From Maribacter dokdonensis DSW-8 (GTDB taxonomy: Bacteria; Bacteroidota; Bacteroidia; Flavobacteriales; Flavobacteriaceae): a stretch of 64,000 nucleotides of DNA. The stretch covers positions 1 to 64,000 of the forward strand of contig NZ_LDPE01000004.1 in assembly GCF_001447995.1 (NCBI RefSeq). Direction: 5' to 3'. The translations under genes and the position numbers were made by a program. Positions 32,974-64,000 of the stretch are shown here, one piece after another (position 1 is the stretch's first letter; every line of letters begins with the position of its first letter). The notes beneath the pieces are model-generated. The model saw nothing but the letters and a program-made list of their open reading frames with translations. It made no database searches and had not been told where the DNA came from.

Positions 32974-33411
32974 CCTATTATATAAGTACATATATTAAAT
33001 TATTAACACTATTGTATAATAATTTGATTTACAGTATCTTATGTGGTATTTTAACGTATCTGATTGTACGGTTTTAGGCTTGTTTCAAATTTCACTTCAC
33101 TGTGCGGTAATATGTGCGAATTCACTTTTATGAAGTACAAAGTTGATTTATGGGAATTGCAGAAGGTTTTTATGGAAAAACATAAGGGCTATATGTAAAA
33201 AGCCAAATATTCTATGATTTATGGGTCATTTTGAACGCTATTTTATAGTGATTGAATGATAGTTTATCTACTTCAAAAGACATTCTTAATAAACTTGTTT
33301 AACAGTAATTCATCAGCATTTTTATCAGTGGAATTTTCCATTTCCGAATCATTTCTACTGAATTAAACATTTACAAACTAAGGCTGTTTTTGCCTCATTA
33401 TTAAGAAAAAT

Positions 33412-34611: not shown

Positions 34612-34640
34612 GAACTGATCTCTACGATTATCTAGGGTTA

Positions 34641-34671
34641 TACCTCAATATGAATAAATACTATTGAGGTA
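34641..34671. repeat. Hairpin between GH88 and the sugar porter
   Basis: A perfect 10-bp inverted repeat (34641..34650 with 34662..34671, 11-nt loop) in the 107-bp gap. There is no T-run directly behind it, so it is not a standard terminator; it could be an mRNA-stabilising structure or an operator. Confidence 0.6.
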
Positions 34672-34718
34672 ATACTTGTATTAAAGTCTTTCTTTTTTGA
34701 ATTAAGAAATAAACGAAC

Positions 34719-36044: not shown

Positions 36045-36055
36045 ATTGTAGAAGA

Positions 36056-38895: not shown

Positions 38896-38902
38896 AACGA
38901 AA

Positions 38903-42623: not shown

Positions 42624-42633
42624 CATAAAATTT

Positions 42634-44997: not shown

Positions 44998-45024
44998 TAA
45001 TCAAATTAAGTAAACAACAACGAC

Positions 45025-46374: not shown

Positions 46375-46451
46375 GTAATTTATTTAAACGGATCATTGAC
46401 CTAAATGGTGTTTTAAAAGCTAGGATTAGATGACATAAGGGTTATGTTAAG

Positions 46452-47594
46452 ATGAAATCAAGAATTGTATTTGGGGTTAGTCTAATTATCCTGTTTTTAG
46501 GATGTACTAACCCTACAACACCAGAATTTGATATAAAAAATGGACTTATGTCCGTTGAGGCATTTGTATCCAATTTTGAGAAATCATCTTATGCCAAAAT
46601 TTACAGGTTAAATGAGTTTAATGCCGGTTTAAATAGTTATGTAAATGTCTTTGAAGAAAAAGCAGAGGTAAGGTTCATTAACAGTAGCACCAATGAAGAA
46701 GTAGTTTTAGTTGAAGATGTAAAAAATGAAATTTACTTGCCACCGCTAGATTTTGTTGCGTTAGAAGGTGAAACTTGGCAGTTATACGTAAGGTTGCAAA
46801 ATGGTACAGAATATATATCTACACCAGAAACAATGTCCAATGTTGTACCTATTGTAAACTCAACCGTAGCATATGATAAAGAGCTTGAGTTTGTGGCTAG
46901 TGAAGGCAAATTTGTGCCCGGCCATCAAATTACTGTGAACGCAACTGATCCTTCAATAAAAGGTAATTATTACTATTGGACATATAGAACCTTTGAAAAG
47001 AATACTATTTGTGTTTTTTGTCCAGAGTATAATTTTTTTAGGGATGGTATGTGTGTTGAATATACAGATCCGGAGAGGGCACAAAATGTTCCGCCATATT
47101 TTACCTATTTCTGTGAATCTGATTGTTGGCAAATACGCTATAATAATCGGGTCAATATCTTGGCAGATGAATTTATAAACGGTAGTACATTTGAGTTACC
47201 GGTAGCAAATTTGCTTTTATATAATAAGAGTAAGATTTTAATAGAGCTTCAACAGTATTCAATTTCTGCTTCAGCCTATAAATACTTTTCGGTTTTAAAG
47301 GATATTGTTGATGACAGTAATGGGTTAAATGCTCCACCTCCAGCGGCATTATTAGGAAACATCATTAACCCAAACGATGAAGAAGAGGTTGTTTTAGGAA
47401 GGTTTACGGTTGCGGCAGCATCGTTGAATAGAATTCTTTTGAGTCGTGACGGAATTGAAGAAAACGAATTGGAACCTTCAATTATTCCTTTACCCGAAAG
47501 CGCTCCAATACCGAAGGATCGTAGGGTATATGAAGCACCTTGTTATGAAGAGTCTCGTTATTTGACCTATACGGAACCAGAAGGATGGAATTAG
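46452..47594 (+). CDS. DUF4249 lipoprotein (partner of TonB receptor)
   Basis: 380 residues, lipoprotein signal ending LFLGCT (Cys18). The rest is beta-rich with a Cys cluster (NTICVFCPEYNFF ... MCVEY ... FCESDCW) typical of DUF4249. Genes of this family lie directly before TonB-dependent receptors in Bacteroidota and probably act like SusD as a surface partner; function is not proven. The 31-bp gap to the following TonB receptor supports a pair. Confidence 0.85.
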   Translation: MKSRIVFGVSLIILFLGCTNPTTPEFDIKNGLMSVEAFVSNFEKSSYAKIYRLNEFNAGLNSYVNVFEEKAEVRFINSSTNEEVVLVEDVKNEIYLPPLDFVALEGETWQLYVRLQNGTEYISTPETMSNVVPIVNSTVAYDKELEFVASEGKFVPGHQITVNATDPSIKGNYYYWTYRTFEKNTICVFCPEYNFFRDGMCVEYTDPERAQNVPPYFTYFCESDCWQIRYNNRVNILADEFINGSTFELPVANLLLYNKSKILIELQQYSISASAYKYFSVLKDIVDDSNGLNAPPPAALLGNIINPNDEEEVVLGRFTVAAASLNRILLSRDGIEENELEPSIIPLPESAPIPKDRRVYEAPCYEESRYLTYTEPEGWN

Positions 47595-47625
47595 ATTCTA
47601 AAATCTATTTAAAAATAACTGAAGT

Positions 47626-50037
47626 ATGAAAATAACTTTTTCATATCTACTGTTTTTAGCACTGTACATCACAAGTATGAATGTGTATGGTCAAGATTTT
47701 GACCTAACAATAAAATTAAAGAACAGCCTTACCAATGAACCTTTGCCTAATGCAAATATTTTTATCATGCCCTGTTCTTGCGGAGGAGCATCAAACGAAA
47801 ATGGTGAGTTAACCATCAAATTAAAACAAGGTGAATATACGGTAAGAATCTCTTATGTAGGCTTTAATGAAAACTTACAGAATATAGTACTGGAAGAAGA
47901 TACGATCTTGGAAGTCTTTCTTGAAGAAGAAAATGAAGTATTGTCGGAAGTTGTGGTAAGGGCGAAAAAAAGAAACGAATTATTGGAATCACCACAAATG
48001 GGTGTATTGCAGTTAAACGCTCAAGAGATAAAAAAAATGCCTGCGGCTTTAGGTGAATTTGATGTTTTAAGAAGCGTAACCCTAATGCCGGGAGTAAATA
48101 ATTCAGGGGAAATAAGTAATGGAATTTCGGTGAGAGGAGGGTCTTTAGATCAAAATTTATTGTTGTATGACTATGCACCGGTATTTAATCCTACTCATTT
48201 ATTCGGTCTGTTTTCTGTTTTCACGCCCGATGCTCTTTCCTCTGTGGATATTTACAGAGCTAATATTCCTGCAAGATATGGCGGTAGGTCAACGTCCGTA
48301 TTGGATATAAAAGTGAGAAATCCGTATGTAGATAAGTTTAAATTATCTGGAGGGGTAGGTTTGGTATCTAGTAGACTAACCGTTGAAACACCACTAGTTA
48401 AAGATAAATTAATGGTCATGGCTGGCATACGTGCCGGATTATCGGATTTTTTACTGCCCATATTCTCAGAACGCTTAAAGAATACAAAAGCTAGGTTTTA
48501 TGATAGTACCATAAAGCTTTTGTACCTACCTTCAGAAAAAGATCAAATTTCATTCACGGGATTCTACAGTAAAGATTTTTATCAACTTGATTTAATTACG
48601 AAGGTGGAAAACATCAATGCTGAAAATAATCAGTATGATTTTAAAACGTTGAACGGTACACTTAATTGGTCACATACCTTCAATGAAAAGGTAAGTTTAA
48701 AAACCATTTTTGTTGCAAGTAATTATTCGCCAAAAAACATTTTTCCAGAATTGGAGAACACCAATGAAATAGAATATAAATCTGGAATACATTATTTAAG
48801 CCTAATTTCTGAAGTATCAAAAAAGGTCTCTGATAAGCTGGATTATTATACGGGTGTACAACTAAATAATTATAAGATTAATCCAGGAGAATTGGATCCT
48901 GGTTTATCAAACGGCGTATTACCCGTAAATCTTCTTGAAGAAAACAGTTATGAACTATCGGGCTATGCTAATGCGAATTGGAAACCTAAACGTAATTTGA
49001 CATTATCTGCAGGATTACGCTACAACTATTTTCAGTTTAATGGACCGTATGTTCTTAATAATTACGATGAAGCAGGGGAAGTGGTCATAGAAAGTAATTT
49101 AATTGAGAAAGGTAAAAAAGTAAAGTCATACAATAATCTAGAACCTAGATTGGGTGTTAATTTTAAGATTGATGAAAGTACTTCTGTCAAAGCAAGCTAC
49201 GCAAATGCAAATCAGTATTTACAGAATGTGTACAACAGTACAACGCCCTTACCAACATCTAGATGGAAAACTTCAGATAGTTTTATAAAACCACAAAGTA
49301 GTAATGCTTATGGACTTGGAGTATATAAAGACCTAAAAAATAATGAAATTGAGGTAGGTGTAGAAGGTTATTTTCGAAGTTCTAAAAACAATTTGACCTA
49401 TAGGCCAGGAGCAGATTTCTTTTTGGCAGAATCTATAGAGCAAAGTGTAGCCCAAGTAGAAGGAAAAGCATATGGTGTAGAACTGAGTTTTAAAAAAAAG
49501 GTGGGCAATGTAAACGGATGGTTAAATTATACATGGTCTAGAAGTTTGTTAAGGTCAGATGAGGAGAATCTTTCAAACAGGATCAATAATAATAATTGGT
49601 TTAGTTCAGATTTTGATAGACCTCATATAATTAATGCTTCGGTCAATATCATTGCTGACAAGTATAATACAGTAAGTTTTAATTTTACGGGACAGACCGG
49701 TAGGCCATATACCATTGCAAATGGGGTCTTTGAGTTTGAAAATATTAATGTTCCTATATTTTTGGAACGTAATAATAATCGGTTGCCAACGTACCATCGT
49801 TTAGATTTTTCATGGAAGGTAACTTATAGTAAAAAGAAGAATCCGCGCTGGGTGGGAGATTGGACGTTTACCGTTTATAATGTCTACGGAAGGAAAAACG
49901 CGTATAGTAGATTCTACTCACAGCGAGATGGTAATTTAGATAAGGATTTTTTCGGGGGATTCCCTTTAGGCTCTTACCAGTTAGAAGTATCCAACAGTCC
50001 AATTTTGGCACTTACCTATAACTTTACTTTTCAGTAG
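47626..50037 (+). CDS. TonB-dependent receptor of the DUF4249-associated type
   Basis: 803 residues: signal peptide (to ~22), a carboxypeptidase regulatory-like domain (about 25-105, NSLTNEPLPNANIFI), a plug with SPQMGVLQLNAQEIKKMPAALGEFDVLRSVTLMPGV in order, and a barrel ending ILALTYNFTFQ. It is shorter than SusC and lacks its ~250 extra residues. With the DUF4249 protein it forms a second outer-membrane import pair within the PUL. No gene with TonB/ExbB function is nearby, as usual. A 246-bp gap with an operator candidate follows. Confidence 0.93.
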   Translation: MKITFSYLLFLALYITSMNVYGQDFDLTIKLKNSLTNEPLPNANIFIMPCSCGGASNENGELTIKLKQGEYTVRISYVGFNENLQNIVLEEDTILEVFLEEENEVLSEVVVRAKKRNELLESPQMGVLQLNAQEIKKMPAALGEFDVLRSVTLMPGVNNSGEISNGISVRGGSLDQNLLLYDYAPVFNPTHLFGLFSVFTPDALSSVDIYRANIPARYGGRSTSVLDIKVRNPYVDKFKLSGGVGLVSSRLTVETPLVKDKLMVMAGIRAGLSDFLLPIFSERLKNTKARFYDSTIKLLYLPSEKDQISFTGFYSKDFYQLDLITKVENINAENNQYDFKTLNGTLNWSHTFNEKVSLKTIFVASNYSPKNIFPELENTNEIEYKSGIHYLSLISEVSKKVSDKLDYYTGVQLNNYKINPGELDPGLSNGVLPVNLLEENSYELSGYANANWKPKRNLTLSAGLRYNYFQFNGPYVLNNYDEAGEVVIESNLIEKGKKVKSYNNLEPRLGVNFKIDESTSVKASYANANQYLQNVYNSTTPLPTSRWKTSDSFIKPQSSNAYGLGVYKDLKNNEIEVGVEGYFRSSKNNLTYRPGADFFLAESIEQSVAQVEGKAYGVELSFKKKVGNVNGWLNYTWSRSLLRSDEENLSNRINNNNWFSSDFDRPHIINASVNIIADKYNTVSFNFTGQTGRPYTIANGVFEFENINVPIFLERNNNRLPTYHRLDFSWKVTYSKKKNPRWVGDWTFTVYNVYGRKNAYSRFYSQRDGNLDKDFFGGFPLGSYQLEVSNSPILALTYNFTFQ

Positions 50038-50111
50038 AAAATAGCATGTAATTTGACGGTACTTCTATGACGTACCCTATCTATTTGTTTACAATTAAAT
50101 ATATCTCCGGT

Positions 50112-50134
50112 TTGCAATACTCCCAGAATTGCAA
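50112..50134. repeat. Inverted repeat TTGCAAT ... ATTGCAA
   Basis: A perfect 7-bp inverted repeat (50112..50118 and 50128..50134) with a 9-bp centre in the gap between the TonB receptor and the second lyase. No T-run follows, so it looks more like a protein-binding site than a terminator. Confidence 0.45.
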
Positions 50135-50154
50135 TGAATTAAAGGTTGCGCATC

Positions 50155-50164
50155 ATAATTTATA
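50155..50164 (-). promoter_or_regulatory. Candidate HTCS operator before the lyase/GH43-like unit
   Basis: ATAATTTATA on the plus strand, preceded by GCATC and followed by CAC, 120 bp upstream of the lyase start at 50284. It shares GCAT[A/C]ATAATTTATAC with the site at 32959..32974. Confidence 0.55.
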
Positions 50165-50283
50165 CACATTGAACTATGATTTAAGCCATTTTTAAGTAAA
50201 AAAAGTAACATTGCTAATGCTATAAGAACAGGGCTTGTAGTTCAGCGTAAGCAGCAAGATTATATGAATTTTTTAATGCGAAT

Positions 50284-52236
50284 ATGGAAGAACGTAAACG
50301 ACACATAGTATATGCACTTATTTTGGTTTTATCACTTATCATTTTAAATTCCTGTACGGGTCAAGAAAAGACAAAAGTTAAAAAGTTGGATATCAAAGCT
50401 TATTTGGATCTTGCAGATAAAGACACTATTTATCCTACTGACAAGCAATTGGCAATGCTTAAAGAAATAATGCCAAGAGAAGCATTTCAGCCAGCGCCTA
50501 AAATATCGAATAGGGCGTATTGGAAAAGTATTGCAGAAACGAGCTCAGGTAAAGAATACTTGACGAAGGCATTGGAGCTTTTAGATAAAAAACCCGAAGT
50601 ACCCATTACGGACAGTATTTATAGACTTGCCAATAAAGAAGGTAACCGGGGTATTTACAAACCAAGGTATTACAGAACTATGGATCGTTTAGAACGCTTT
50701 ATTCTTGCAGAATGTCTGGAGAACGAAGGACGTTTTTTACCACAGATCAAGACGTATAGCAAAGCTATAATGAGTATGAAATCATGGTTGCACCCTAATC
50801 ATGATGATGATGAAAACGGAGTTTTAGAAGGTAGGCGAATATCCATTGACTTGGGTGCACGAAAATTTGGGGGTGTACTGGCATTGGCTGAAAATTTGTT
50901 GGAAGATAAATTGCCTAAGTCATTACAAGATGAAATTCATAAACAGTTGCAAAGACGTATTACGGATTCTTATTTAAAAAGTACAAAGTATTTAGATGAG
51001 AATAATAAGTGGATAAAGAGTACCAGTAATTGGAATTCCGTTTGTACCAGTGGCACGGTGTTGACCACGATCACCAGTTCAGAAAGTTATGAGAAGCGTT
51101 TGGCAACTGTAGGTGCTGCGCTTAATAGCATGGCGTATTATTTAAGCGGTTTTGGTGATGATGGGTATTGTTCAGAAGGTTTGGGATATTGGGGTTATGG
51201 CTTTGGGCATTATTTGTATTTGGCTCAAATATTACATGATTATACCAATGGAAGTATAGATTTATTTATTTTCAATAATGCGAAAAAAATGGAGAATGTT
51301 GGCAATTTTCCCGAAGGATTTGAAATTCAGAAAAATGTTTGTTCTCCGTTTTCAGATGGGGTTTCATCCATCTCAAGAAAGGGTAGTAATTTCGCCGATG
51401 TTTTATCTGCAAAGCATTATGGTGCCATTCCACCGACCGAAATAAGAATGGAGGAAGCAGCAGAGCAATTGATCGCTTGGCAATACCCGGAAATGTTTCA
51501 AGTTGTTGAAAAATCGAAACCATCGAAATTACCTGATCATACATACTTCAATGATTTTGGAATGGTCATTTCAAGGGGAAAACAGGAAATTCCATTTTCA
51601 ATTGCCCTAAAAGCAGGTCATAATGCCGAAAATCACAATCATAGTGATGTGGGTACATATAGCCTGGTATTGAACGATGAAATTATAGCAGGAGACATAG
51701 GTGCGCCATCATATAGGGCAGGATCTTTTTCTCCGGATAATAAAGCCAGAAGTTCTTGGGGGCATCCCGTACCCATGGTCAACAACACCTTACAGTCTAA
51801 CGGAATTGAATTTAAGGGAATTATTACGGAAACAGATTTCAGTGATCAAATAGATAAGGTGGTTATGGATATTTTACCTGCCTATGAATTACCAATGTTA
51901 AAAACCTTGGAAAGGACGGTAACAAATAATAAGTCTGGTAAAGGCACCATTATTATTGAAGATCATTTTGTAGCAACGGAGCCTGTTAGTTTTGGATCGG
52001 CAATAATGACTTTAAACGAGTATGAAATTTTAGATGGTAAAACCGTTATTTTAAAGACGGCCAACCAGCAAGTAAAAGCCGAGATTAAGGGCAAAGGTTT
52101 TGAATTTCACATTAAAGATGAAAAAGTACCAGTGGAACATTTAAGGGAAGGTGGTCCTGCTTATAAAATTGGAATAGAGTTTACTGAACCTAGTGTTGAG
52201 GGAATTCTGACCATCAAATTTACACCAATATCATAA
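50284..52236 (+). CDS. Heparinase II/III-like polysaccharide lyase (lipoprotein), distinct from the two long paralogues
   Basis: 650 residues, lipoprotein signal with Cys24 (LIILNSCTG). Helical toroid (about 60-380, e.g. SNWNSVCTSGTVLTT and GLGYWGYGFGHYLYL) followed by the Heparinase II/III sandwich with KAGHNAENHNHSDVGTYSL (His451, His453) and SWGHPVPMVNNTLQSNG. It is about 280 residues shorter than the other two lyases and belongs to another branch. It heads the second gene block behind a candidate operator. Its stop and the ATG of the next gene overlap by one base. Confidence 0.88.
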   Translation: MEERKRHIVYALILVLSLIILNSCTGQEKTKVKKLDIKAYLDLADKDTIYPTDKQLAMLKEIMPREAFQPAPKISNRAYWKSIAETSSGKEYLTKALELLDKKPEVPITDSIYRLANKEGNRGIYKPRYYRTMDRLERFILAECLENEGRFLPQIKTYSKAIMSMKSWLHPNHDDDENGVLEGRRISIDLGARKFGGVLALAENLLEDKLPKSLQDEIHKQLQRRITDSYLKSTKYLDENNKWIKSTSNWNSVCTSGTVLTTITSSESYEKRLATVGAALNSMAYYLSGFGDDGYCSEGLGYWGYGFGHYLYLAQILHDYTNGSIDLFIFNNAKKMENVGNFPEGFEIQKNVCSPFSDGVSSISRKGSNFADVLSAKHYGAIPPTEIRMEEAAEQLIAWQYPEMFQVVEKSKPSKLPDHTYFNDFGMVISRGKQEIPFSIALKAGHNAENHNHSDVGTYSLVLNDEIIAGDIGAPSYRAGSFSPDNKARSSWGHPVPMVNNTLQSNGIEFKGIITETDFSDQIDKVVMDILPAYELPMLKTLERTVTNNKSGKGTIIIEDHFVATEPVSFGSAIMTLNEYEILDGKTVILKTANQQVKAEIKGKGFEFHIKDEKVPVEHLREGGPAYKIGIEFTEPSVEGILTIKFTPIS

Positions 52237-53333
52237 TGCGAAATAGACTTTTAGTAATATGCTGTTTACTCGTTTCTATAGTTCATAGCCAAAACAATAT
52301 TTTAGATAAATTGGGTGTAGCACCAGTTGAAGGCGGACTCATTATGGAAGATTATTGGGTTTGGGGAAGTTCTGTGATAAAGGGAGAAGATGGAAAATAT
52401 CATATGTATGCTTCAAGATGGCCAAAATATTTAAAGTTTCATCCTGGGTGGATGATCGCTTCTGAAATTGTACATGCCGTTTCAGATTCAGCTGAAGGTC
52501 CTTATGAATTTAAAGATGTTGCGCTTGGAGCTAGGGGTGCACAGTATTGGGATGGTAGGTCTTGTCATAATCCAAAGATTGTGAAATATAAAGAGAATTA
52601 TTTGCTTTATTATATGGGATCTACACATCCGTTTGAAGAGTTGACAGAAGAAAATTCAGATGCGCTAACATTAGATAGCAAATGGTGCATAGCCGGTAGA
52701 TGGGGTAAAAGGGTAGGTTTAGCCACTTCTAAGAGTCCAAATGGACCATGGAAACGGTTAGACACTCCAATTTTAGATGTAAAACCAGATTCTTTTTACA
52801 GCTATATTACTTCAAATCCTTCGCCATTGATTAAAAAAGATGGTTCTGTGGTATTGTTATTTAAAGGTCGAAGCTATAGAGAAGATAAAATTACGCACAC
52901 TGACCAGTTTATAGGTGTGGCTACGGCAGATTCTTTTGATGAAAAATATAGCGTTGTTGGTAATGAACCACTTTTCTCGGCATATAAATTTGGGGAAGTG
53001 GAAGACCCACATGTATGGAGCGATGATAATGGTTTTCATATGATAGCGAAAGATATGACGGGTGCAATTACAGATGGGTATCATGGTGGGGTGCTAGCAC
53101 ATTCTAAAGATGGAATTCAATGGGCATTGGATAAAAATCCCTTGGCATATACCAGAGAAGTAACTTGGAATAACGGACAAACTATTGAGCAAGGTCAGTT
53201 GGAAAGACCGTTTGTTTTAGTTGAAGATGGCGAGCCAACCCATATTTTCTTTGCCACAATGGATGGTCCAGGAGGATTTGGTAATGGCACAAAAACATGG
53301 AATATGGTAATACCACTAACAGATAATAAATAA
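52236..53333 (+). CDS. Five-bladed beta-propeller glycosidase-like protein (GH43/GH117-like)
   Basis: 365 residues, signal peptide to about residue 18. Repeated propeller strands are seen: WVWGSSVIKGEDGKYHMYASRW, CHNPKIVKYKENYLLYYMGS, NPSPLIKKDGSVVLLFKGR, VEDPHVWSDDNGFHMIAKDM and QLERPFVLVEDGEPTHIFFA. This is the fold of clans GH-F/GH-J and of GH117 and GH130; the Glu in VEDPHVW is a candidate acid. I cannot place it in a numbered family. It overlaps the lyase by one base and precedes the beta-helix gene by 7 bp. Confidence 0.7.
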   Translation: MRNRLLVICCLLVSIVHSQNNILDKLGVAPVEGGLIMEDYWVWGSSVIKGEDGKYHMYASRWPKYLKFHPGWMIASEIVHAVSDSAEGPYEFKDVALGARGAQYWDGRSCHNPKIVKYKENYLLYYMGSTHPFEELTEENSDALTLDSKWCIAGRWGKRVGLATSKSPNGPWKRLDTPILDVKPDSFYSYITSNPSPLIKKDGSVVLLFKGRSYREDKITHTDQFIGVATADSFDEKYSVVGNEPLFSAYKFGEVEDPHVWSDDNGFHMIAKDMTGAITDGYHGGVLAHSKDGIQWALDKNPLAYTREVTWNNGQTIEQGQLERPFVLVEDGEPTHIFFATMDGPGGFGNGTKTWNMVIPLTDNK

Positions 53334-53340
53334 TACACAC

Positions 53341-54738
53341 ATGAAATTAATAGGTAAGGTTCTATTTCTATTATCGGTTTTTGCGATAACAACATCGTTT
53401 ATGATCTATGTTGTAGATAACCAACAGGAGATCATAGAAGTACAAACACTTTCTGAATTCAAAAAGTACTTGAATAAGGACAATGTAAAGGTAAAACTGG
53501 CAGCAGGCAATTATCAGATAGATGATGCTAAGAAAATTAGGTTTATGGAGTTTACAGGTAATAACAGCTACTTTGACCTTACCGGGGCAAGATTTATGGT
53601 CGATACAAAATTGTTTAGTCGTAATGATCTAGAATCTAGTAATGATGGTAATGACATGTATTGTGCCATTGAGGTTTCTGGTAAAAATGTCACGCTTGAA
53701 GGTTTGTATATTGAAACCTATGGAGATACACCAGGTAAGCAGAGCAAGAATAAAATATTCAATGTAGTTGGTGATGATGTTACCCTTAAAGATATAGAAA
53801 TCCGTACGGCAGGATCTAGTCCATGGGGCTATGGAAGTTTATATGGTTTAGGTGGGGGTGATGTTCGAAAAATGAACGGTATTCGTGTAGGTTATCCCGC
53901 AAAAAATGCAAAATTAATAGGTTGTACAGTCCATATGAGAGCCATGGGGCATGCCATCTTTTTACAAGGTGCAGAGAATACGTTGATAGAAGATTGCCAT
54001 GTAGACGGTTTACTTAGAACAACAAATGCCATTCTTAAGGAAACTTCAGGTTATCTTTTTGATAGGGATTTTTACGCATTAAAGCCAAAACATGAACATA
54101 AACCCGGTTATGTTGAAGGAACAATTATAGGTAGAGATGGCAAAATTCTGCCAAATGAGATTATTTCTTTAAGCGAAGACGGAATCCGAATGTATCCGGA
54201 ATACAACGGTCATAAAACCTTGAATACAACAGTAAAAAATTGTACGGTTACGCAAATGCGAAGAGGTATTTGCACGGGTTTAAGCACATCTGGCGATAAA
54301 ATTATTGATTGTGTAGTACGCAATTGCGTAGCTACCGGATATAACATAGGTAATGCAGATACAGTAATTAATTGCAGTGCAGATGCAAAATATGCAGAAG
54401 CATTTTGCGTACCCTATACAGATGCCAAAGGGGCATATGTAGAAATGAATATTTTAGATAGCAGAAATGGCTTGGCCAATAATCTATTGGCGAAAATTAA
54501 TGGTACGGGGCATGAAGTAATAATTAAAACGGCAGACCCAGCTTACATACCAGAAAATTTAGAGATAAAATTATCGGTTTGGGAGGGCTATGGCAACTTC
54601 AATAAAAATGCGGTCATGCATGCCACTGATATCAAATTAGAGAATGAAACTGCAGCGAAAGTACTTTTATTTCCTGGTACCAAAAATCCCGAAATAAAAA
54701 GTGAAGGTGAAGTGGTTAAGGTTTCAAAATCCAAATAA
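53341..54738 (+). CDS. Secreted right-handed beta-helix protein of unknown activity
   Basis: 465 residues, with an N-terminal hydrophobic segment (about 7-26) that is a signal peptide or anchor. The rest is a parallel beta-helix: coils such as NVTLEGLYIETYGD, DDVTLKDIEIRTAG, AENTLIEDCHVDGLL and TTVKNCTVTQMRRGI. Polysaccharide lyases (PL6-like), epimerases and glycosidases share this fold; I see no diagnostic active site. Tight spacing (7 bp before, 6 bp after) puts it between the GH43-like gene and the third lyase, so action on the same glycan is expected. Confidence 0.7.
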   Translation: MKLIGKVLFLLSVFAITTSFMIYVVDNQQEIIEVQTLSEFKKYLNKDNVKVKLAAGNYQIDDAKKIRFMEFTGNNSYFDLTGARFMVDTKLFSRNDLESSNDGNDMYCAIEVSGKNVTLEGLYIETYGDTPGKQSKNKIFNVVGDDVTLKDIEIRTAGSSPWGYGSLYGLGGGDVRKMNGIRVGYPAKNAKLIGCTVHMRAMGHAIFLQGAENTLIEDCHVDGLLRTTNAILKETSGYLFDRDFYALKPKHEHKPGYVEGTIIGRDGKILPNEIISLSEDGIRMYPEYNGHKTLNTTVKNCTVTQMRRGICTGLSTSGDKIIDCVVRNCVATGYNIGNADTVINCSADAKYAEAFCVPYTDAKGAYVEMNILDSRNGLANNLLAKINGTGHEVIIKTADPAYIPENLEIKLSVWEGYGNFNKNAVMHATDIKLENETAAKVLLFPGTKNPEIKSEGEVVKVSKSK

Positions 54739-54744
54739 AATCCA

Positions 54745-57516
54745 ATGATGTTTACAATTATAAAAAGGCTGAAAATTAAAAGTAGAGCAGTAATATGTAC
54801 CAATGTTCTAATAGGATGTATCTCAATATCTTTTGCCCAGAGTACTGAAAAGATACCACTACCGACCAATTTAGAACAAGGCTATCCAAGGTTGTATATT
54901 ACTCAAGACGAGAAAAAAGACCTTCAAAAAACCATTAAAAAAGAAACCTGGGCAAAAGAGGTGTTACAGGGCATTCATAATCGAATTGATACTCATGTAA
55001 AGCGCCATCAATCAGATCCGGAGTGGATGGTTTCAAGACTGCAAATGCATTGGAAAACCAAGGCGACCAACATTTATGTAAACGGGGTAAATTATTCACA
55101 TGCCGATGGTGAAGCACCAGTGCCTACGGTTCGTTTTGTAGGAGCAAGAGATTATACCACTCCCTATGGTAAACCTAATTTAGAAGATATTTTGCCTTAT
55201 ATGGATGACCCAAGGGGATTGTATTTGCCCAATAGAAGTAAAGAGGGCAAACCATTTGAGTGGGTACACCCTGCTAAGACCGGTAGAATTATCTACTCGA
55301 TAAACGAAGAAATAATAGGTCTTGCACGTGATGCCGCCTTCATCAATTGGTTAGAAAATGAAGAGGAGTATGCTAAATTCTCCTTCGATGTTTTTCATAA
55401 ATATATGGAGGGCATGTCATATAGAAGTGAGCCCATAGATTTGTTGAACGGTCACATACAGACCCTTGTAGGTTTTACTAATTTTCAGGTGATACATGAA
55501 AATGTTCTGATTGAAATAGCTGAACTCTATGATTTTTTACATCCGTATATAGAAGCAAAATATCCGCAGCATATTGCCATGTACGATAAAACCATAAAAC
55601 GTTGGACAGACCAGATCATTAAGAACGGTGTACCGCAGAATAATTGGAATTTACACCAAGCAAAAATCATATTGAAAGCTGCAATGGTTTTGCAAGATGA
55701 CCGGTTCTATGAAGACAAAAAAGGCAGGGAATATTACATAGATTATATATTGAACGTAACCTCTGCTCGTCAATGGTCGTTGATCAAATTTATGGATTAT
55801 GGTTATGATAAGGAAAATGGAGTTTGGGCAGAGTGTCCTGGGTATTCTATGGGTGTCACCAAAGATTTAACCCACTTTGTAGAAGACTTCAATAATACCT
55901 TTGATCATAATATTTTACCATACATGCCCATAATGGAAGATGCGGTAAAAATGCTGCCACAGTATCTATTTCCTAATGGGCAAACGGTTGCCTTTGGTGA
56001 TAGTTATTATGGTCCGCTGAGTTCAGAACCAATGAACGATATGATCCGTATTGCCCAGAAGAATAATAATGTAGAGCTAGAAGAGGAATTTACCGCAATG
56101 TACCGCCTATTTGCGGATAATGAAGCAGGGCAAAAGAAAAAGCAAAGAGCCGATATAAGTTCGTTCTTTGCCAGTAAACCGTTAGAAATCAATCCGAAAT
56201 ACAAAAAAGGAAATTTGGACGATTATATTACCCAAACCTTTTATGCTCCTAATGTAAGTTGGCACGTACAGCGCATGGGTAAGGGCAAAAACGGAATGAT
56301 GGTTTCTTTAAATGCATCACTGGGAAATCACATGCATGCAAATGGAATTAACATGGAATTGTACGGAAAAGGATTGGTACAAGGTTCTGATCCAGGTAAA
56401 GGAGCTGGCTATTTACAACCGGTGTATTTGGAGTTTTATTCTCAATTTCCGGCACACAATACGGTCATGGTAGATGGTGTATCATCCTATACCGAAATGC
56501 TCAGCTATCATGCATTTGATTTGATGGGACAATACCCAATTTCAGGACAGAAAGAGGGGTATTACAAAGATATTACCTATTCTGATGTCTATTTCTTGGA
56601 GCCCGAAACGCAAAGCGACCAATCACGTTTGGTAAGTATTGTAAAAACAGGTGAGGAAACAGGATATTACGTTGATATTTTTCGCTCGAAGAAGCAACGC
56701 AAGGGTGATAAATTTCATGACTATTACTACCATAATTTGGGTCAGACCATGAAGGTGATGGATGCGGATGGAAACCCCTTAACACTTTTACCCAGTGAGG
56801 AAATGGGCTTTGCGGGCGGACATTTGTACGCGCTAGATTATATGTGGGATAAAAAATCCGTAAAGTTAGAAGACGACTATCAAGCCGAATGGAAAATAGA
56901 TATGCCAGATAGTGAAGATGATATTTTCATGAACCTTTGGATGAAAGGTACAGAAGGTCGTGAGGTATTCTCCATTAAATCACCACCTAATAAAGGATTT
57001 AAGGGTAACCACGGTTTACCATATGATGTAGATAAAGCCCCTTATTTAACGTTGACGGCAAGACAACATGGCGAGGCTTGGGAGCATCCATTTGTGTCGG
57101 TATATGAACCTTTTACATCTTCCAAAGGAAAAAGTATAGAGAAGATTTCAAGTTTTGAAGACCAAAATAACAGTAAAGGTTTTGTTGGATTAAATATTAC
57201 ACATACCTCTGGAAGAAAAGATTTGGTGTTCTCTACGGTCAATAATCAAACAGCAACTTATGGTGAAGTAAGTACAAATGCTACGTATGCATTGATTGGT
57301 ACAGAGAAAAATGAGAATGTAGTCCTATTTATGGGCAATGGTACACAATTGAAAACAAAAGATTTAGTGATTGCTTCAGTTGAAAAAGGTAATGTGGTTT
57401 TAGAACTGAAAGATGGTAAACTGTATTTACATAATGAAGTTCCTGTAAGTATTACCCAAAATGGCAAGAGTCAACAGTTCAAAGTTGGTGGTTTTAGGGC
57501 GGTTGGTATTGAATAG
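54745..57516 (+). CDS. Heparinase II/III-type polysaccharide lyase, paralogue 2
   Basis: 923 residues, signal peptide in the first ~32. Same layout as the lyase at 38903..41731: N-terminal DPEWMVSRLQMHWKTK and GEAPVPTVRFVGARDYTTPYG, a toroid with GVPQNNWNLHQAK and the sandwich block GNHMHANGINMELYGKG (His529, His531) with SQFPAHNTVMVDG. The two proteins are parallel throughout, so they come from duplication, yet their surface loops differ and they sit in separate blocks. This suggests cleavage of two related uronate linkages or differently substituted regions. Followed after 36 bp by GH95. Confidence 0.88.
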   Translation: MMFTIIKRLKIKSRAVICTNVLIGCISISFAQSTEKIPLPTNLEQGYPRLYITQDEKKDLQKTIKKETWAKEVLQGIHNRIDTHVKRHQSDPEWMVSRLQMHWKTKATNIYVNGVNYSHADGEAPVPTVRFVGARDYTTPYGKPNLEDILPYMDDPRGLYLPNRSKEGKPFEWVHPAKTGRIIYSINEEIIGLARDAAFINWLENEEEYAKFSFDVFHKYMEGMSYRSEPIDLLNGHIQTLVGFTNFQVIHENVLIEIAELYDFLHPYIEAKYPQHIAMYDKTIKRWTDQIIKNGVPQNNWNLHQAKIILKAAMVLQDDRFYEDKKGREYYIDYILNVTSARQWSLIKFMDYGYDKENGVWAECPGYSMGVTKDLTHFVEDFNNTFDHNILPYMPIMEDAVKMLPQYLFPNGQTVAFGDSYYGPLSSEPMNDMIRIAQKNNNVELEEEFTAMYRLFADNEAGQKKKQRADISSFFASKPLEINPKYKKGNLDDYITQTFYAPNVSWHVQRMGKGKNGMMVSLNASLGNHMHANGINMELYGKGLVQGSDPGKGAGYLQPVYLEFYSQFPAHNTVMVDGVSSYTEMLSYHAFDLMGQYPISGQKEGYYKDITYSDVYFLEPETQSDQSRLVSIVKTGEETGYYVDIFRSKKQRKGDKFHDYYYHNLGQTMKVMDADGNPLTLLPSEEMGFAGGHLYALDYMWDKKSVKLEDDYQAEWKIDMPDSEDDIFMNLWMKGTEGREVFSIKSPPNKGFKGNHGLPYDVDKAPYLTLTARQHGEAWEHPFVSVYEPFTSSKGKSIEKISSFEDQNNSKGFVGLNITHTSGRKDLVFSTVNNQTATYGEVSTNATYALIGTEKNENVVLFMGNGTQLKTKDLVIASVEKGNVVLELKDGKLYLHNEVPVSITQNGKSQQFKVGGFRAVGIE

Positions 57517-57552
57517 TATAAAAATTGTAGTGTAGATATTTAAAGAAGTCAA

Positions 57553-60075
57553 ATGAAAAACCAACCAGAATCCTTGAAATTAATGTCGTTATGTTTTTTA
57601 ATGGCATTTTGGACGGTAGCTTTAATGCAGGCTCAAAAAACTGAATCTGACCTTAAACTATGGTATACGGCACCAGCGGCAGATTGGAATGAAGCTTTGC
57701 CAATTGGTAACGGTCGTTTGGCGGCTATGGTTTTTGGGAATCCCATTAACGAGAATATTCAATTGAACGAAAGTACCTTATGGGCTGGCGGTCCGCACCG
57801 TAATGATAATCCAAGGGCAAAAGAATCTTTGTCCAATATACGACAACTCATTTTTGAAGAAGACTATGATCAAGCTCACGGTATCGCTAATCGCGATTTT
57901 ATTTCAAAAACCTCTCATGGCATGCCCTATGAAACGGTGGGGAATTTAAGGTTGAATTTTAAAGACCAAAAAAATTACACCAATTACTACAGGGAATTGG
58001 ATATTGAAAATGCAGTGAATACCACCATGTATTCGGTCAATGGTGTGGAATTTAAAAGAGAGGTTTTTACCTCTTTTACGGATGAGGTCATTGTAATGAG
58101 GTTAACAGCCAATAAAGAAGCTCAAATTAGTTTTACGGCAACTATGGATCGCCCAGAACCGGCTAAAGTTAGGTTGTTTACTGAAAACAGTGATGTTTTG
58201 GTCATGACAGGTTTTGGTAGTGATAATAAGAACAAGCGTTTGCCAGAAGAGTCTGAGCCGGTTAAAGGTGAAGTAGAATTTGATACCAGAATAAAAATTG
58301 TTCCGGAAGGCGGAAAAATAGTTTCAACGGCAAGTGAATTAAAGGTAACAAATGCAAATAGTGTGATGCTGTACATTTCAATAGCTACAAGTTTTGTGGA
58401 CTACAATGATGTAAGTGCAGATGCTCATAAAAAGGCAACAGATTATTTGGCTAAAGTATCCTCTAAAAAATATGATCAATTGTTAAGCCGTCATTCAAAT
58501 TTTTACCAAAAGTATTTTAATAGGGTCTCATTACATTTAGGTAGTACAGATGCGGCAAAAAATCCTACTGATGTTAGAATAAAAGAATTTAGTACCGGTA
58601 TAGATCCATCGCTAGTTGCCCTGTATTTTCAATTTGGCAGGTATTTATTGATTTCATCTTCGCAACCAGGTGGTCAGCCGGCCAACTTACAGGGCTTATG
58701 GAACAACCTATTGGTACCACCTTGGAAAAGTGCCTATACCGTAAATATCAATACAGAAATGAATTACTGGCCTGCTGAGGTTACCAATTTATCTGAAATG
58801 CATGAGCCATTAATTGATATGGTAAAAGATCTTGCAGTAACGGGAAAAGAAACCGCAAAGGTTATGTACGGTGCAGATGGGTGGGTAACCCATCACAATA
58901 CAGATTTATGGAGAATTACCGGTCCTGTAGATGGGGCAACTTGGGGAATGTGGCCAACTGGCGGAACATGGTTAAGTCAGCATTTATTCGATAAATATGA
59001 ATTTAGTGGTGATGTAGCGTATTTAAAAACGGTTTATCCAGCTATGAAAGGTGCCGCTGAGTTTTGTTTGAGTATGTTAACTCCAGAACCTGAAAATGGT
59101 TGGTTGGTAATTTCACCTTCGATATCCCCTGAACATGGACCCAAAAACCGTTCTAAAAATGTATTTATCGCGGCAGGTACTACCATGGATAATCAATTGG
59201 TGTTCGATATGTTGACAAAAACAATAAGAGCGGCAAAATTACTAAGGGTAGATGATAAAATGGTATCTAAAATGCAGTGGGCTTTAGCGAAACTACCTCC
59301 AATGAAAATAGGTCAACATCATCAGCTTCAAGAATGGATGCAAGATTTAGATGACCCCATCGATGATCACCGTCACGTATCTCATTTGTACGGTTTATAT
59401 CCTTCAAATCAAATATCGCCCTATAGAAATCCGGAGTTATTTCAAGGTGCCAAAAATACTTTGATTCAAAGGGGAGACCCATCTACCGGGTGGTCAATGA
59501 ATTGGAAAATTAATTTGTGGGCTAGAATGTTAGATGGCAACCATGCCTATAAATTAATGGGCGATCAAATAAAATTAGTTGGCAGACCAGACTCGCCTAA
59601 AGGCGGAGGTACTTATGCCAATATGCTAGATGCTCACCCGCCATTTCAAATTGATGGTAATTTTGGGTTCACCTCTGGTGTAGCGGAGATGTTGGTTCAA
59701 AGTCATGATGGGGCAATTCACTTATTACCTGCATTACCAGATATATGGGGAAAGGGCAAGGTAATGGGTCTTCGGGCTAGGGGAGGTTTTGAAATCAAGG
59801 AGTTAGAATGGAAAGATGGTAGAGTTGTAAAAGCTATAATCCGATCTAATCTAGGCGGAAACCTTCGTGTAAGAGGGTATGACAAATTGCAGGATCAAAA
59901 CGGTAATGAATTTAAAGTTGCAACCACGGAAAACGTGAATCCGTTTTATCAAGTGCCACAAATTAAAAAGCCCGTCATATCAATAACAAATCCTGAAGAG
60001 CTTATTTTAAAACCTACATTCTTATATGACTTAGCTACAAAAGTTGGGCAAGAAGTTATGCTATTTGCCAAGTAG
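57553..60075 (+). CDS. GH95 alpha-L-fucosidase / alpha-L-galactosidase
   Basis: 840 residues, signal peptide to about residue 27. GH95 blocks are complete: [19 protein letters not shown] and [15 protein letters not shown] at the N-terminal sandwich, then the (alpha/alpha)6 barrel with [50 protein letters not shown], and [18 protein letters not shown], the last carrying the catalytic Asp region. These are inverting enzymes that remove terminal alpha-1,2-linked fucose or L-galactose. Together with GH29 and the GH141-like protein it makes fucose a likely part of the substrate. Last gene before a 167-bp gap. Confidence 0.95.
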
Positions 60076-60142
60076 TTTTATGAATTAAAATCAGGTTTGC
60101 TTTGCAATTACTTAAAAACCTTATTTCTAGGCATAATAGGCA

Positions 60143-60152
60143 ATAATTTATA
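60143..60152 (-). promoter_or_regulatory. Candidate HTCS operator before the FAD oxidoreductase unit
   Basis: ATAATTTATA on the plus strand, preceded by GGCA, 91 bp upstream of the start at 60243 and in one of only four large gaps of the plus-strand cluster. Same orientation relative to the downstream gene as the sites before the second lyase and GH88. Confidence 0.5.
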
Positions 60153-60242
60153 GAAGTTGAATAATAAGAGATACATGTTTTATTCAATAAAGAATAAACT
60201 TGTATAGATCAATAATCAACAACTTTTAATTCATTCTTACCT

Positions 60243-61931
60243 ATGTGGAATTTTTTATCGAACACTTCAATTTTCAAGTCCATTGTTTGTGCATTTTTGC
60301 TGATCCAAATAGCATGCGCACCAAATAATGAAAAGAATATAGATGCAGAAGTGGTTATTTATGGTGGCACATCTGCAGCAATTGCTACAGCGGTACAATT
60401 GGCAAGAATGAATAAATCGGTCATTATTGTATGTCCGGAAACCCATATAGGCGGTCTCTCATCTAGCGGACTAGGATTTACCGATCTGGGAAATAAGGAA
60501 GTCATTGGGGGTATTTCAAAAGAGTTTTATCAAGAAGTATACAAACACTACCAGAATAAAGAAGCTTGGAACTGGCAACCAAGAGAGGAATATGGTAATG
60601 AAGGGCAAGGCACCACCGCCATAGATGATGAGCTCAAGACCATGTGGACATTTGAGCCCCATGTTGCTGAACAAATTTTTGAGCAATTTGTAAGGGAGCA
60701 TAACATTACCATACATCGCAATAAATGGCTAGATAGGGAAAAAGGTGTAGAAGTCGAGAACGGAGTGATCAAATCTATTACCATGCTGAACGGGGAGAAT
60801 TATAAAGCCAAGATTTTTGTTGATGCCACTTATGAAGGAGATTTAATGGCTGCCGCAGGTGTAAATTACCACGTTGGTAGAGAAGCTAATAGTGTTTATG
60901 GTGAGGAATGGAACGGTGTACAAAAAGGAATTTACCACCACAGCCACAACTTTCAACAGTTGAATATTAGTCCGTATGTAATACCCGGCGATTCTACTAG
61001 TGGAGTACTTCCTAGGATATCAACAGCACCACCGGGTGAAAATGGTTCAGGAGATGAAGGGGTGCAGGCTTATAATTATAGATTATGCACTACTAACGCA
61101 GAAGGCAATGTGGTTCCTTTTGAGAAGCCTGAGAATTATGATCCAGCACAATATGAATTGCTGAGAAGAGTATTTGAAGGTGGTAGATATTCCATGTTCG
61201 GAGGGGGCAAGATTCCCAATAAAAAGCGCGATGTTAATAACGTAGGACCGTTCAGCTCTGATAATATTGGAATGAATTATGACTATCCGGAAGCATCTTA
61301 TGAAAGGAGAAAGGAAATTTTACAAGAGCATATAGACTATCACAAAGGTTTGCTTTATTTCTGGGGTCATGATGAAAGTGTGCCAGAACGGTTTAGGACA
61401 AGCATAAAAAAGTGGGGTCTTGCCAAAGATGAGTTTGTGGACAACGGTCATTGGCCCTACCAAATTTACGTTCGCGAAGCAAGGAGGATGATCGGGGAAT
61501 TTGTCATGACGGATAATGAGATACTTGGAAAAAAGAAAGTATTAAAACCTATAGGTATGGGCTCCTATGCCATGGATTCACATAACGTTCAACGCTATAT
61601 AACCAAAGAAGGCTATGTGCAAAACGAAGGTGATTTGGGTATAGAGCCAGACGCTCCCTATCAAATACATTTAGGTACAATATTGCCAAAGCAGAAAGAA
61701 TGTAAAAATTTATTGGTTCCTGCTGCAGTCTCTAGTTCGCATATTGCCTTTGGGTCCATAAGAATGGAGCCTGTATTTATGATTTTAGGTCAGAGTGCCG
61801 GTACCTTGGCAGGAATGGCCATAGATGGGGAGAAAAATATTCATGATGTTGCATATTCTGCTTTAAAGCAGCAATTGATTAAAGACGGCCAGGTGTTGGA
61901 ATATCACGGACCAGATGATGAAGCTAAATGA
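60243..61931 (+). CDS. FAD-dependent oxidoreductase (PF12831-like, lipoprotein)
   Basis: 562 residues, lipoprotein signal ending IQIACAP (Cys26). The FAD-binding fold begins DAEVVIYGGTSAAIATAVQLARM (shown here in two parts: EVVIYGGTSAA and IATAVQLARM), then CPETHIGGLSSSGLGFTDLG, and a late IHLGTILPKQKECKNLL ... LGQSAGTLAG block. Such proteins are often annotated as xanthan-lyase-associated oxidoreductases and occur in many PULs; the substrate is unknown but is probably a sugar or uronate in the periplasm. The 4-bp overlap with the SGNH gene and the following DUF1080 gene form a three-gene unit. Confidence 0.85.
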   Translation: MWNFLSNTSIFKSIVCAFLLIQIACAPNNEKNIDAEVVIYGGTSAAIATAVQLARMNKSVIIVCPETHIGGLSSSGLGFTDLGNKEVIGGISKEFYQEVYKHYQNKEAWNWQPREEYGNEGQGTTAIDDELKTMWTFEPHVAEQIFEQFVREHNITIHRNKWLDREKGVEVENGVIKSITMLNGENYKAKIFVDATYEGDLMAAAGVNYHVGREANSVYGEEWNGVQKGIYHHSHNFQQLNISPYVIPGDSTSGVLPRISTAPPGENGSGDEGVQAYNYRLCTTNAEGNVVPFEKPENYDPAQYELLRRVFEGGRYSMFGGGKIPNKKRDVNNVGPFSSDNIGMNYDYPEASYERRKEILQEHIDYHKGLLYFWGHDESVPERFRTSIKKWGLAKDEFVDNGHWPYQIYVREARRMIGEFVMTDNEILGKKKVLKPIGMGSYAMDSHNVQRYITKEGYVQNEGDLGIEPDAPYQIHLGTILPKQKECKNLLVPAAVSSSHIAFGSIRMEPVFMILGQSAGTLAGMAIDGEKNIHDVAYSALKQQLIKDGQVLEYHGPDDEAK

Positions 61932-62677
61932 GAATAAGTACAGGACATATTGTTTTCATCATATTGTTAATTACATCTTCAATATCAACCTATGCTCAAG
62001 TAATAAATGCAGGAGTGAGAGGTAATACTGCAGTAGATCTTTTAGAAAGATTAAATGATGATGTATTGATTAAATCTCCAGATTTGGTGATAGTAATGGT
62101 TGGTACAAATGATATGCTGAATTCTAAAAAGTTGGTTTCATATCACGCGTATGAGGATTATTTAGAGCGCATTGTCATACGCATAAAGCAAATGAAAAGT
62201 AACGTTGTGCTTATGACATCTCCACCGGCAGATTCTGTCTATTTATTTAAAAGACATGATAAGAAGTTGTTTAAAGAATCGCCTAATGTGAAGTTGGATA
62301 GTGCACGAAATAGGGTTCATCATGTGGCAAAAAAATTATCGGTGCATTATTTGGATTTATTTCAGGTTTTTAATGATATGAATTTGCCCAAGCATAACAG
62401 CGATTTATTTTTTAAGAATAGTAGCAATAGTGGAGCTGCGGACGGCGTGCATCCTACGGCATTGGGCTATCGGTTTATTGGAGAATTTGTATTTCGATAT
62501 TTAAAGGAAAACCTGTTATTGAAAAATCCACAAAAGATTATTTGTTTAGGCGATTCTATTACCTATGGCAGCGGAATGGTTGGTAGAGGAACAGCTATGG
62601 GAGATACGTATCCTGCAGTCCTTCAGGATTTTATAAATAATGAATACAACAGTATAAATAGACCAAGTAAAAACTGA
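61928..62677 (+). CDS. Circularly permuted SGNH/GDSL hydrolase
   Basis: 249 residues, signal peptide to about residue 24. All SGNH blocks are present but rotated. Directly after the signal peptide comes block II (NAGVRGNTAVDLL, Gly32), then block III (MVGTNDM, Asn61) and block V (DGVHPTALGYRFIG, Asp172 and His175). Block I with the nucleophile, IICLGDSITYGSG (Ser210) followed by TAMGDTYPAVLQDF, is at the C-terminus, whereas it is N-terminal in normal members. The frame is intact with no room for another block I. Likely an esterase that deacetylates the glycan. It overlaps the FAD oxidoreductase by 4 bp and lies 4 bp before DUF1080. Confidence 0.88.
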   Translation: MRISTGHIVFIILLITSSISTYAQVINAGVRGNTAVDLLERLNDDVLIKSPDLVIVMVGTNDMLNSKKLVSYHAYEDYLERIVIRIKQMKSNVVLMTSPPADSVYLFKRHDKKLFKESPNVKLDSARNRVHHVAKKLSVHYLDLFQVFNDMNLPKHNSDLFFKNSSNSGAADGVHPTALGYRFIGEFVFRYLKENLLLKNPQKIICLGDSITYGSGMVGRGTAMGDTYPAVLQDFINNEYNSINRPSKN

Positions 62678-62681
62678 TAAA

Positions 62682-63506
62682 ATGAAAAAAAGGAGAATGC
62701 GCCAATTACTACTTGTTTTGCTCATATTAATGGTAAATGTGAATTTCATCAATGGGCAATATCACAAGAAATTAGAGGAAGGTTTTGTACAACTGTTCAA
62801 TGGTAAAAATTTTGATGGCTGGCATCTCAAATTAAAAAAAGGTGATAGTATCATGGCAAAAGAAGTATACGCTATAGAAGATGGTATGGTACATGTTTTT
62901 AAGGATATGCCAGATAGTTTAAATCTAAACACGGGAGAAAATGCCACTCATGGTTTATTCTATACTAATAAGAAGTATAGTAAGTACATACTTAGGTTTG
63001 AATATAAATGGGGAGAGAAAATCACCAATAATTTTGATGAATGGCAGTATGATGCGGGCTGCTATTACCATGTTTTTGATGATAAAGTGTGGCCTAAGGG
63101 TTTGGAATATCAGGTTCGATATAACCATATTACCGAAAGAAACCATACAGGCGATTTTTGGGGTGCTGGTGTAAGTTTAGATTGGACAGCTACTGAAGAT
63201 GGCAAAACATTTTTATTGCCCAAAGATGGAGGTAAGGAAATGCGTAATATGAAAAATGAAATTTATGGGTATGCATCTCCCAAATATAATGCCTTGAACG
63301 GAAAATGGAATCAGTGCGAAATTATTGTAATGGGCAATGTATATACCATTCACAAGTTAAATGGTAAAATTGTGAATATGGGCACTAACCTTTCGGTGGA
63401 GGAAGGTATCATCGGTTTTCAATCGGAAACGGCAGAAATATTTTATCGAAACATAGAAATCAAAGAATTCGATAAGGTTATTCCAATTGAAAAATTTCTA
63501 AATTAA
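62682..63506 (+). CDS. DUF1080 / 3-keto-disaccharide hydrolase domain protein
   Basis: 274 residues, signal peptide to about residue 25. The concanavalin-like DUF1080 fold shows GFVQLFNGKNFDGWHL at the start, RFEYKWGEK, an NHxTGDFWG segment and FQSETAEIFYRNIEIKEF at the end. DUF1080 proteins include 3-keto-glycoside hydrolases/lyases that cut glycosides after oxidation at C3. Here the gene is cotranscribed with an FAD oxidoreductase, which may, but need not, be the oxidising partner. Last gene of the three-gene unit. Confidence 0.85.
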   Translation: MKKRRMRQLLLVLLILMVNVNFINGQYHKKLEEGFVQLFNGKNFDGWHLKLKKGDSIMAKEVYAIEDGMVHVFKDMPDSLNLNTGENATHGLFYTNKKYSKYILRFEYKWGEKITNNFDEWQYDAGCYYHVFDDKVWPKGLEYQVRYNHITERNHTGDFWGAGVSLDWTATEDGKTFLLPKDGGKEMRNMKNEIYGYASPKYNALNGKWNQCEIIVMGNVYTIHKLNGKIVNMGTNLSVEEGIIGFQSETAEIFYRNIEIKEFDKVIPIEKFLN

Positions 63507-63525
63507 AAGTAACTCATAAATGCTT

Positions 63526-63555
63526 ATAATTTATATGGAATGAACTATAAATTAT
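63526..63555. promoter_or_regulatory. Inverted pair of candidate HTCS operators before the sulfatase
   Basis: ATAATTTATA (63526..63535) and TATAAATTAT (63546..63555) are mirror copies with centres 20 bp apart, 117-147 bp before the sulfatase start. This is the only place where the two copies face each other; upstream of susC they are in direct repeat. Confidence 0.55.
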
Positions 63556-63671
63556 ATCGCATAGCTATATTAAAAATTACGTCGATATAAGATCCATAAT
63601 TCAGCAGTTCTATTGTTGTTGGTAAGTTGAACTAGGGGACAGATCTTGATGAAATTAAATGAAATCAAAGA

Positions 63672-64000
63672 ATGAATAAAGACAGAGTTTTGAGCAAGGT
63701 AATCGTAGTTTTTTTAATAGCTATAGTTGGTCTTGGTTGTAAGGGTAAAGAGAAGAATAAACCGGTTGAGGTAAAAAAGAAACCTAACTTTTTATTTGTT
63801 CTGGTAGATGATCAATCTCCTTTCGATTTTAAATTTTACGATTCTACTTCAACTTTAGATGCCCCAACGATAACCAAATTGGCAAAAGATGGTTTAATAG
63901 TAGATGATGCCAGACACATGGGGGCTATGGTGGGTGCGGTTTGTACCCCATCTAGACATATGATCATGAGTGGGAGAACGGTTTGGAGCTTACCATCTAT
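63672..64000 (+). CDS. Formylglycine-dependent sulfatase, N-terminal part (lipoprotein, cut by window end)
   Basis: The frame is open from ATG 63672 to the right edge (109 full codons visible). Lipoprotein signal with Cys24 (IVGLGCKG), then NFLFVLVDDQSPFDF with the two metal-binding Asp residues, and CTPSRHMIMSGR, the CxPSR sulfatase signature whose Cys is converted to formylglycine. It removes sulfate esters from the glycan, so the substrate is probably sulfated. It lies 165 bp after DUF1080 with an operator pair between, and so begins another transcription unit. Subfamily cannot be given from the N-terminus. Confidence 0.93.
   Translation, partial: MNKDRVLSKVIVVFLIAIVGLGCKGKEKNKPVEVKKKPNFLFVLVDDQSPFDFKFYDSTSTLDAPTITKLAKDGLIVDDARHMGAMVGAVCTPSRHMIMSGRTVWSLPS

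Follow-up and report, generated by a model that had tools for sequence, protein, structure and literature searches.

The gene at positions 61,928 to 62,677 of the window, the 64,000-nucleotide stretch of Maribacter dokdonensis DSW-8 DNA analysed here, very probably encodes a circularly permuted SGNH (GDSL) hydrolase whose chain is cut between blocks I and II, which leaves the strand and helix of the nucleophile at the C-terminus. Its blocks occur in a rotated order and are conserved among homologues, the re-rotated sequence is collinear with profiles of normal-order proteins, a confident structure prediction has an SGNH-like fold, and the gene lies in a PUL. Its most likely role, by prediction, is that of a secreted esterase removing O-acetyl groups from carbohydrate; acetyl is favoured as the substituent removed because the closest solved relatives include acetyl xylan esterases.

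An intact gene with a rotated block order

The open reading frame is intact, with an ATG start, 249 codons plus stop and no internal stops (Table 1), and the circular permutation proposed in the initial annotation can be read directly from it: the blocks run II-III-V-I, where the normal SGNH order is I-II-III-V, and the normal order appears only once the protein is rotated. All of the superfamily's signature residues are present (Gly-Asp-Ser of block I, Gly of block II, Asn of block III and Asp-x-x-His of block V). That annotation was also right that every catalytic residue is kept, as G32, N61, D172 and H175 occur in each of the 121 aligned rows and S210 in 120; G214 of block I is likewise conserved in 120. 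The motif IICLGDSITYGSG spans residues 204-216, one residue earlier than the 205-217 first given for it, while the earlier numbering of Asn61, His175 and Ser210 was correct.

From these positions, a catalytic triad of Ser210, His175 and Asp172 would be expected, with an oxyanion hole formed by the backbone NH of Ser210 together with Gly32 and Asn61; Gly32 is presumably the oxyanion glycine, by analogy with E. coli thioesterase I. The strand at 203-208 would refill the place of the fold's first strand, and the helix at 228-244, which is the first helix of the fold in normal SGNH proteins, is the C-terminal one here. To judge from their conservation, R109 and H110 of the RHD motif possibly have a role in substrate binding.

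Table 1. Coordinates of the permuted gene, its sequence features and its surroundings in the window
Feature	Position	Strand	Evidence
Permuted SGNH hydrolase	61928..62677	+	Intact ORF; PF13472 5.7e-22, PF00657 6.9e-22; AF2 pLDDT 96.1, pTM 0.90
Likely signal peptide, residues 1-23	61928..61996	+	By eye: hydrophobic run ending TYA-Q
Block II, NAGVRGN, residues 27-33	62006..62026	+	N27, G29, G32 in 121/121 aligned rows
Block III, GTND, residues 59-62, putative oxyanion Asn61	62102..62113	+	G59, N61, D62 in 121/121 rows
RHD, residues 109-111	62252..62260	+	R109, H110 in 121/121 rows
Block V, DGVH, residues 172-175, putative triad Asp172 and His175	62441..62452	+	D172, G173, H175 in 121/121 rows
Junction, residues 197-202, old C-terminal helix to block I	62516..62533	+	Best ring-opening cuts 197-199 of 217
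Block I, GDSIT, residues 208-212, putative nucleophile Ser210	62549..62563	+	G208, D209, S210, T212 in 120/121 rows; predicted strand 203-208, then helix 210-213
Helix after block I, residues 228-244	62609..62659	+	Predicted helix; Y228, P229 in 119/121 rows; pair 189-236 coupling rank 6 of 22155
Upstream FAD-dependent oxidoreductase, PF12831	60243..61931	+	PF12831 1.1e-104; 4-nt (ATGA) overlap with permuted gene
Downstream PF06439 (3-keto-disaccharide hydrolase)	62682..63506	+	PF06439 1.7e-29
PUL around permuted gene	27622..63998		SusD, SusC-like, GH88, transporter, alpha/beta esterases, GH97, heparinase II/III-like, GH29, GH95

Rotation restores collinearity with normal-order proteins

The native protein scores 79.5 bits against PF13472 (curated cut-off 32.9) and 79 bits against PF00657 (cut-off 23.6), with matches that begin only at profile positions 33 and 38, respectively, past the profile's serine-bearing front; the missing front is found at the protein's C-terminus. 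There, a 42-aa piece containing block I, taken alone, matches positions 1-27 of PF13472 (16.9 bits) and 1-32 of PF00657 (18.2 bits), both under the curated cut-offs. The body alone yields 65.4 and 62.5 bits, and the rotated protein 90.5 and 87.9 bits, covering positions 1-177 of 178 and 1-206 of 208. When the sequence is doubled, the highest-scoring stretch crosses the join.

A profile of 57 normal-order proteins (26 found via the rotated profile, 27 via PF13472 and four via the normal-order protein L021) raised the score from 98.7 bits for the body to 123.7 for the rotated protein, a gain of 25, while 200 shuffles of the segment averaged 99.7 bits (sd 1.2) and reached at most 105.6, gains of about 1 and 7. 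Of 217 cut positions scored on this profile, the top ones were residues 197-199, at the junction. Divided by source, the 26 proteins that came from the rotated profile, L021 excluded, gave 104.1 bits rising to 117.6, a gain of 13.5 that none of the 200 shuffles reached (maximum 110.6); five L021-type proteins gave 33.7 rising to 56.4, a gain of 22.7, again reached by none (maximum 38.9); and the 28 found with PF13472 showed a weak gain of 3.7, from 63.1 to 66.8, reached by eight of 200 shuffles (maximum 74.7). The best cut was 196-197 in each of the three subsets.

Further, 1yzf, the best solved match, improved on rotation (2.4e-12 before, 1.7e-13 after), and its chain coverage grew from 40-191 to 2-190; several other solved matches barely improve, and 4q9a worsens. 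The rotated profile A2 aligns normal-order proteins collinearly across the join (for example, over positions 1-212 of 217), and in the 27 normal-order loci kept from its search block I comes first, except for a few with no clear block I. Taken with the conservation data, the Pfam rotation and the shuffles led us to reject block I as a chance motif, the gain in the subset found with PF13472 alone being weak.

A family sharing the permuted order

Three homologue searches were pooled, the first with 186 matches at E up to 1e-3 and the second and third with 1612 and 1319 at 1e-10 (8000 scored candidates each); the best 120 of each were taken, giving 213 proteins for inspection, and the remaining matches may include normal-order proteins. 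Block I follows block V in 212 of the 213, and the search for homologues with the same block order that had been proposed as a check found the strict pattern II-III-V-I in 210. The two others, P0118 and P0155, were missed by the pattern and recognised by eye. Because the 213 were retrieved by permuted queries, their uniform order is partly a matter of selection.

Had the gene been a truncated two-domain tandem, or had a sequencing error deleted a first block I, the order would be an artefact, and P0112 (194 aa, Saccharicrinis sp.), whose chain ends before block I and lacks it wholly, could be taken in that sense. We consider this reading ruled out, with next to no probability left to it, as block I precedes block II in none of the 213 homologues, whose median length is 241 aa, and an order shared by so many sequences excludes an assembly error.

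A second alternative, that the protein keeps only the fold and is catalytically dead or a binding protein, appears highly unlikely. The SGNH superfamily does hold a non-enzymatic family, OSK, listed as RNA-binding in the available part of PMC9487903; in P0155 the block V Asp is replaced by Gly; and we encountered no family member with a reported activity. However, G32, N61, D172, H175 and S210 are invariant across the 91 aligned members of alignment A1, which would be unexpected for a relic. P0112 and P0155 themselves may be decayed or inactive.

The organisms named among the homologues, such as Maribacter, Zobellia, Draconibacterium, Chitinophaga, Pedobacter and Pontibacter, we take to be all Bacteroidota. 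Their spread is patchy: with E up to 1e-30 as the limit, three genomes out of 296 in the phylum and 12 out of 397 in the family have a homologue, counts that both include the window's own genome. No NCBIfam model matched the window protein or three relatives at its cut-off.

Several relatives carry additional regions. In L052 (160-2166) and L057 (minus strand), some 450 residues, matching Pfam Beta_helix in L052 (4.6e-6), precede the permuted SGNH domain as an N-terminal fusion, and similar N-terminal fusions were seen by eye in P0092 and P0108. In L058 (minus strand) the permuted SGNH domain is divergent and is followed by a long C-terminal extension whose end resembles, by eye, a type IX sorting tail.

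Predicted structure

AlphaFold2 predicts the three-layer alpha/beta/alpha fold characteristic of SGNH/GDSL proteins at high confidence (Table 1). The body is matched best, in sequence and in structure, by the acetyl xylan esterase AlAXEase (PDB 7ddy) and the lipase/acylhydrolase 1yzf. The structural alignment gives first and last residues only, from which the placement of block I is not readable; in 1yzf and a few other rows the alignment runs to model residue 243 or 249, so that some of the C-terminal helix is aligned there in some way, and in a few the starting residue is an early one (8zbc at 2, 9hi6 at 24).

The coupling analysis, shallow at Neff 173, is partly supportive. Pair 189-236 is among its leading couplings (Table 1); at this depth no enrichment was seen for strand 203-208 with 24-29 or with 53-58, and some of the leading inter-segment pairs, such as 155-204, 49-203 and 119-216, do not correspond to evident contacts.

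Since contacts within a chain and between chains look alike to both AF2 prediction and couplings, and since a short junction with a terminal block I would permit swapping, the C-terminal block I of one chain could complete the active site of another in a segment-swapped dimer. We give this arrangement only a slim chance, as the model of a single chain has high confidence over the junction (pLDDT blocks of 97 and 98) and a high pTM, and a self-contained permuted monomer is the simpler reading.

Genomic context

The initial annotation had assigned the gene to a PUL, and SusC/SusD-like, glycoside hydrolase and sulfatase genes do surround it. From 63672 on, and beyond the end of the window, the locus continues with five sulfatases, GH97, GH28, KduI and an SDR gene; a second heparinase II/III-like gene in the PUL falls under the Pfam cut-off. 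This gene content, rich in sulfatases and fucosidases, points to a substrate that is sulfated and contains fucose and uronate, so that the target of the PUL is probably an algal polysaccharide of this kind. On such a substrate, the secreted enzyme would strip O-acetyl groups, and deacetylation would open the polysaccharide to the PUL's lyases, fucosidases and sulfatases.

We also compared 23 related loci, which are not independent (three share one genome). In all 23 the nearest upstream gene is co-directional with the permuted gene. Fifteen have a counterpart of the window's FAD oxidoreductase (a homologue with 45% identity or more) no further than two genes away, and in nine it is the gene immediately upstream. 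The PF12831 oxidoreductase gene is a recurring operon partner of the permuted gene, and a 4-nt overlap between the two was seen in the window, L003, L004, L005, L059 and L060. In a Pfam tally of the 45 nearest and 45 next co-directional neighbours, one opposite-strand gene having been removed from each, PF12831 occurred 10 and 8 times, GH95 2 and 6 times and sulfatase 1 and 3 times; SASA acetylesterase was counted 6 times and CstA and GMC 5 times each. The order FAD oxidoreductase, CstA, permuted SGNH, SASA acetylesterase, GMC oxidoreductase was observed in L064, L067, L068, L069 and L070, with Pfam names taken from L067 and the other loci matched by gene lengths and neighbour tallies. As a whole, the PUL, these neighbourhoods and the N-terminal fusions are consistent with a secreted carbohydrate esterase.

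Three proteins have no Pfam match at 1e-5: two PUL proteins encoded at 50284-52236 (650 aa) and 52236-53333 (365 aa) of the window, homologues of which occur near other permuted genes at 57-76% identity, and a 480-aa protein between sulfatase genes downstream of the window (L014, 13431-14873).

Comparison with known permuted SGNH proteins

Other SGNH-like proteins have been described as circularly permuted, namely AlgJ, AlgX, WssI and BcPatB1; the available sections of these reports give, where an order is stated, H-S-G-N/Y/D, equivalent to a cut between blocks III and V, and for AlgJ and AlgX the altered motifs GTSYS and DxH and a Tyr in place of Asn (PMC9487903, PMC4148444, PMC10302187, PMC5697884). 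In these sections, the proteins of the AlgX/AlgJ and DHHW families are permuted and SGNH-like, as the window protein is, and act on polysaccharide acetylation. AlgJ, AlgX, WssI and BcPatB1, however, are described there as O-acetyltransferases, with the order H-S-G-N/Y/D where one is given, whereas the window family has the order G-N-H-S and the canonical motifs GDSIT, GTND and DGVH; neither the H-S-G-N order nor the motif changes of AlgJ and AlgX are found in the window protein. The AlgX and DHHW Pfam profiles gave no match to the native protein at E up to 0.01, and none to its rotated or doubled forms up to E 10, a range in which HMMER filters drop most matches above about 0.1.

AlAXEase and 1yzf share the SGNH fold with the window protein and agree with it in how blocks II, III and V follow one another, but their block I is N-terminal where that of the window protein is C-terminal. 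The CE20 acetylesterase XacXaeA offers another unusual SGNH architecture from a polysaccharide-degrading system: in the available sections of the report its catalytic domain is divided into two halves by a domain insertion, and the main text never uses the string 'permut' (PMC8245568). The available sections of PMC3779223, PMC5408684, PMC12419801 and PMC5863359 contained nothing bearing on the permuted family. The initial annotation knew of no described permuted SGNH esterase of this kind; AlgJ, AlgX, WssI and PatB1 qualify that statement, being permuted, with the cut elsewhere. In the open literature, a scope that places most subscription papers and all preprints outside it, we found no description of a G-N-H-S permuted SGNH family or of a permuted PUL esterase.

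Origin of the permutation

Tandem duplication of a single SGNH gene, the origin first suggested, is not established, because block I and the body score best on, and so resemble, different normal-order subfamilies. The most similar block I was found among the L021-type proteins, a normal-order SGNH group from Bacteroidota, in which the two highest scorers of 12 reached 31.5 (L021 itself) and 30.6 bits; 54 other normal-order proteins scored at most 13.3 bits, a value that only seven of the 12 L021-type proteins exceed. The body of L021 scores 48.8 bits, against 83.4 for the best normal-order protein. Median scores for block I and body were 17.2 and 8.0 bits in the 12 L021-type proteins, whose bodies are thus dissimilar to that of the window protein, and 2.4 and 58.2 bits in the 54 others. 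In this comparison the two sets were assembled differently, the block I segment has about 38 residues, and two of the 12 L021-type proteins, having no block I in the cut reading frame, were scored 0.

Judged from these sequence scores, block I and the body may trace back to separate SGNH genes, though the pattern would be no different if one ancestor, not sampled here, had combined the two traits. We tentatively propose, as a possibility short of an even chance, that an AlAXEase-like body acquired an L021-like block I from a neighbouring gene and then lost its own, the permutation becoming fixed in a clade that is spread across Bacteroidota. No intermediate with two blocks I occurs in the 213 proteins, and in the 23 related loci each permuted protein over the threshold has a single GDS motif.

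A tree was built from 25 permuted proteins in rotated form and 27 with the normal order, omitting L058, which would have been the 26th permuted row. In it the permuted group forms one side of a weakly supported branch (69/74; 66% of 200 bootstrap trees), suggesting that the family likely had one origin. L021 stands beside the permuted group on a very long branch (4.52).

Significance

With this family, a very large enzyme superfamily would have a second naturally occurring site of permutation, one that places the nucleophile at the chain end and keeps the canonical motifs. Since domain annotation of such enzymes reports a partial GDSL domain beginning past the serine, they may be overlooked as broken, a risk that applies to surveys of PULs and of carbohydrate esterases. 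If the mosaic origin is true, the active site was rebuilt out of two different genes, and whatever the origin, the family offers a natural setting for studying the emergence and maintenance of circular permutation.
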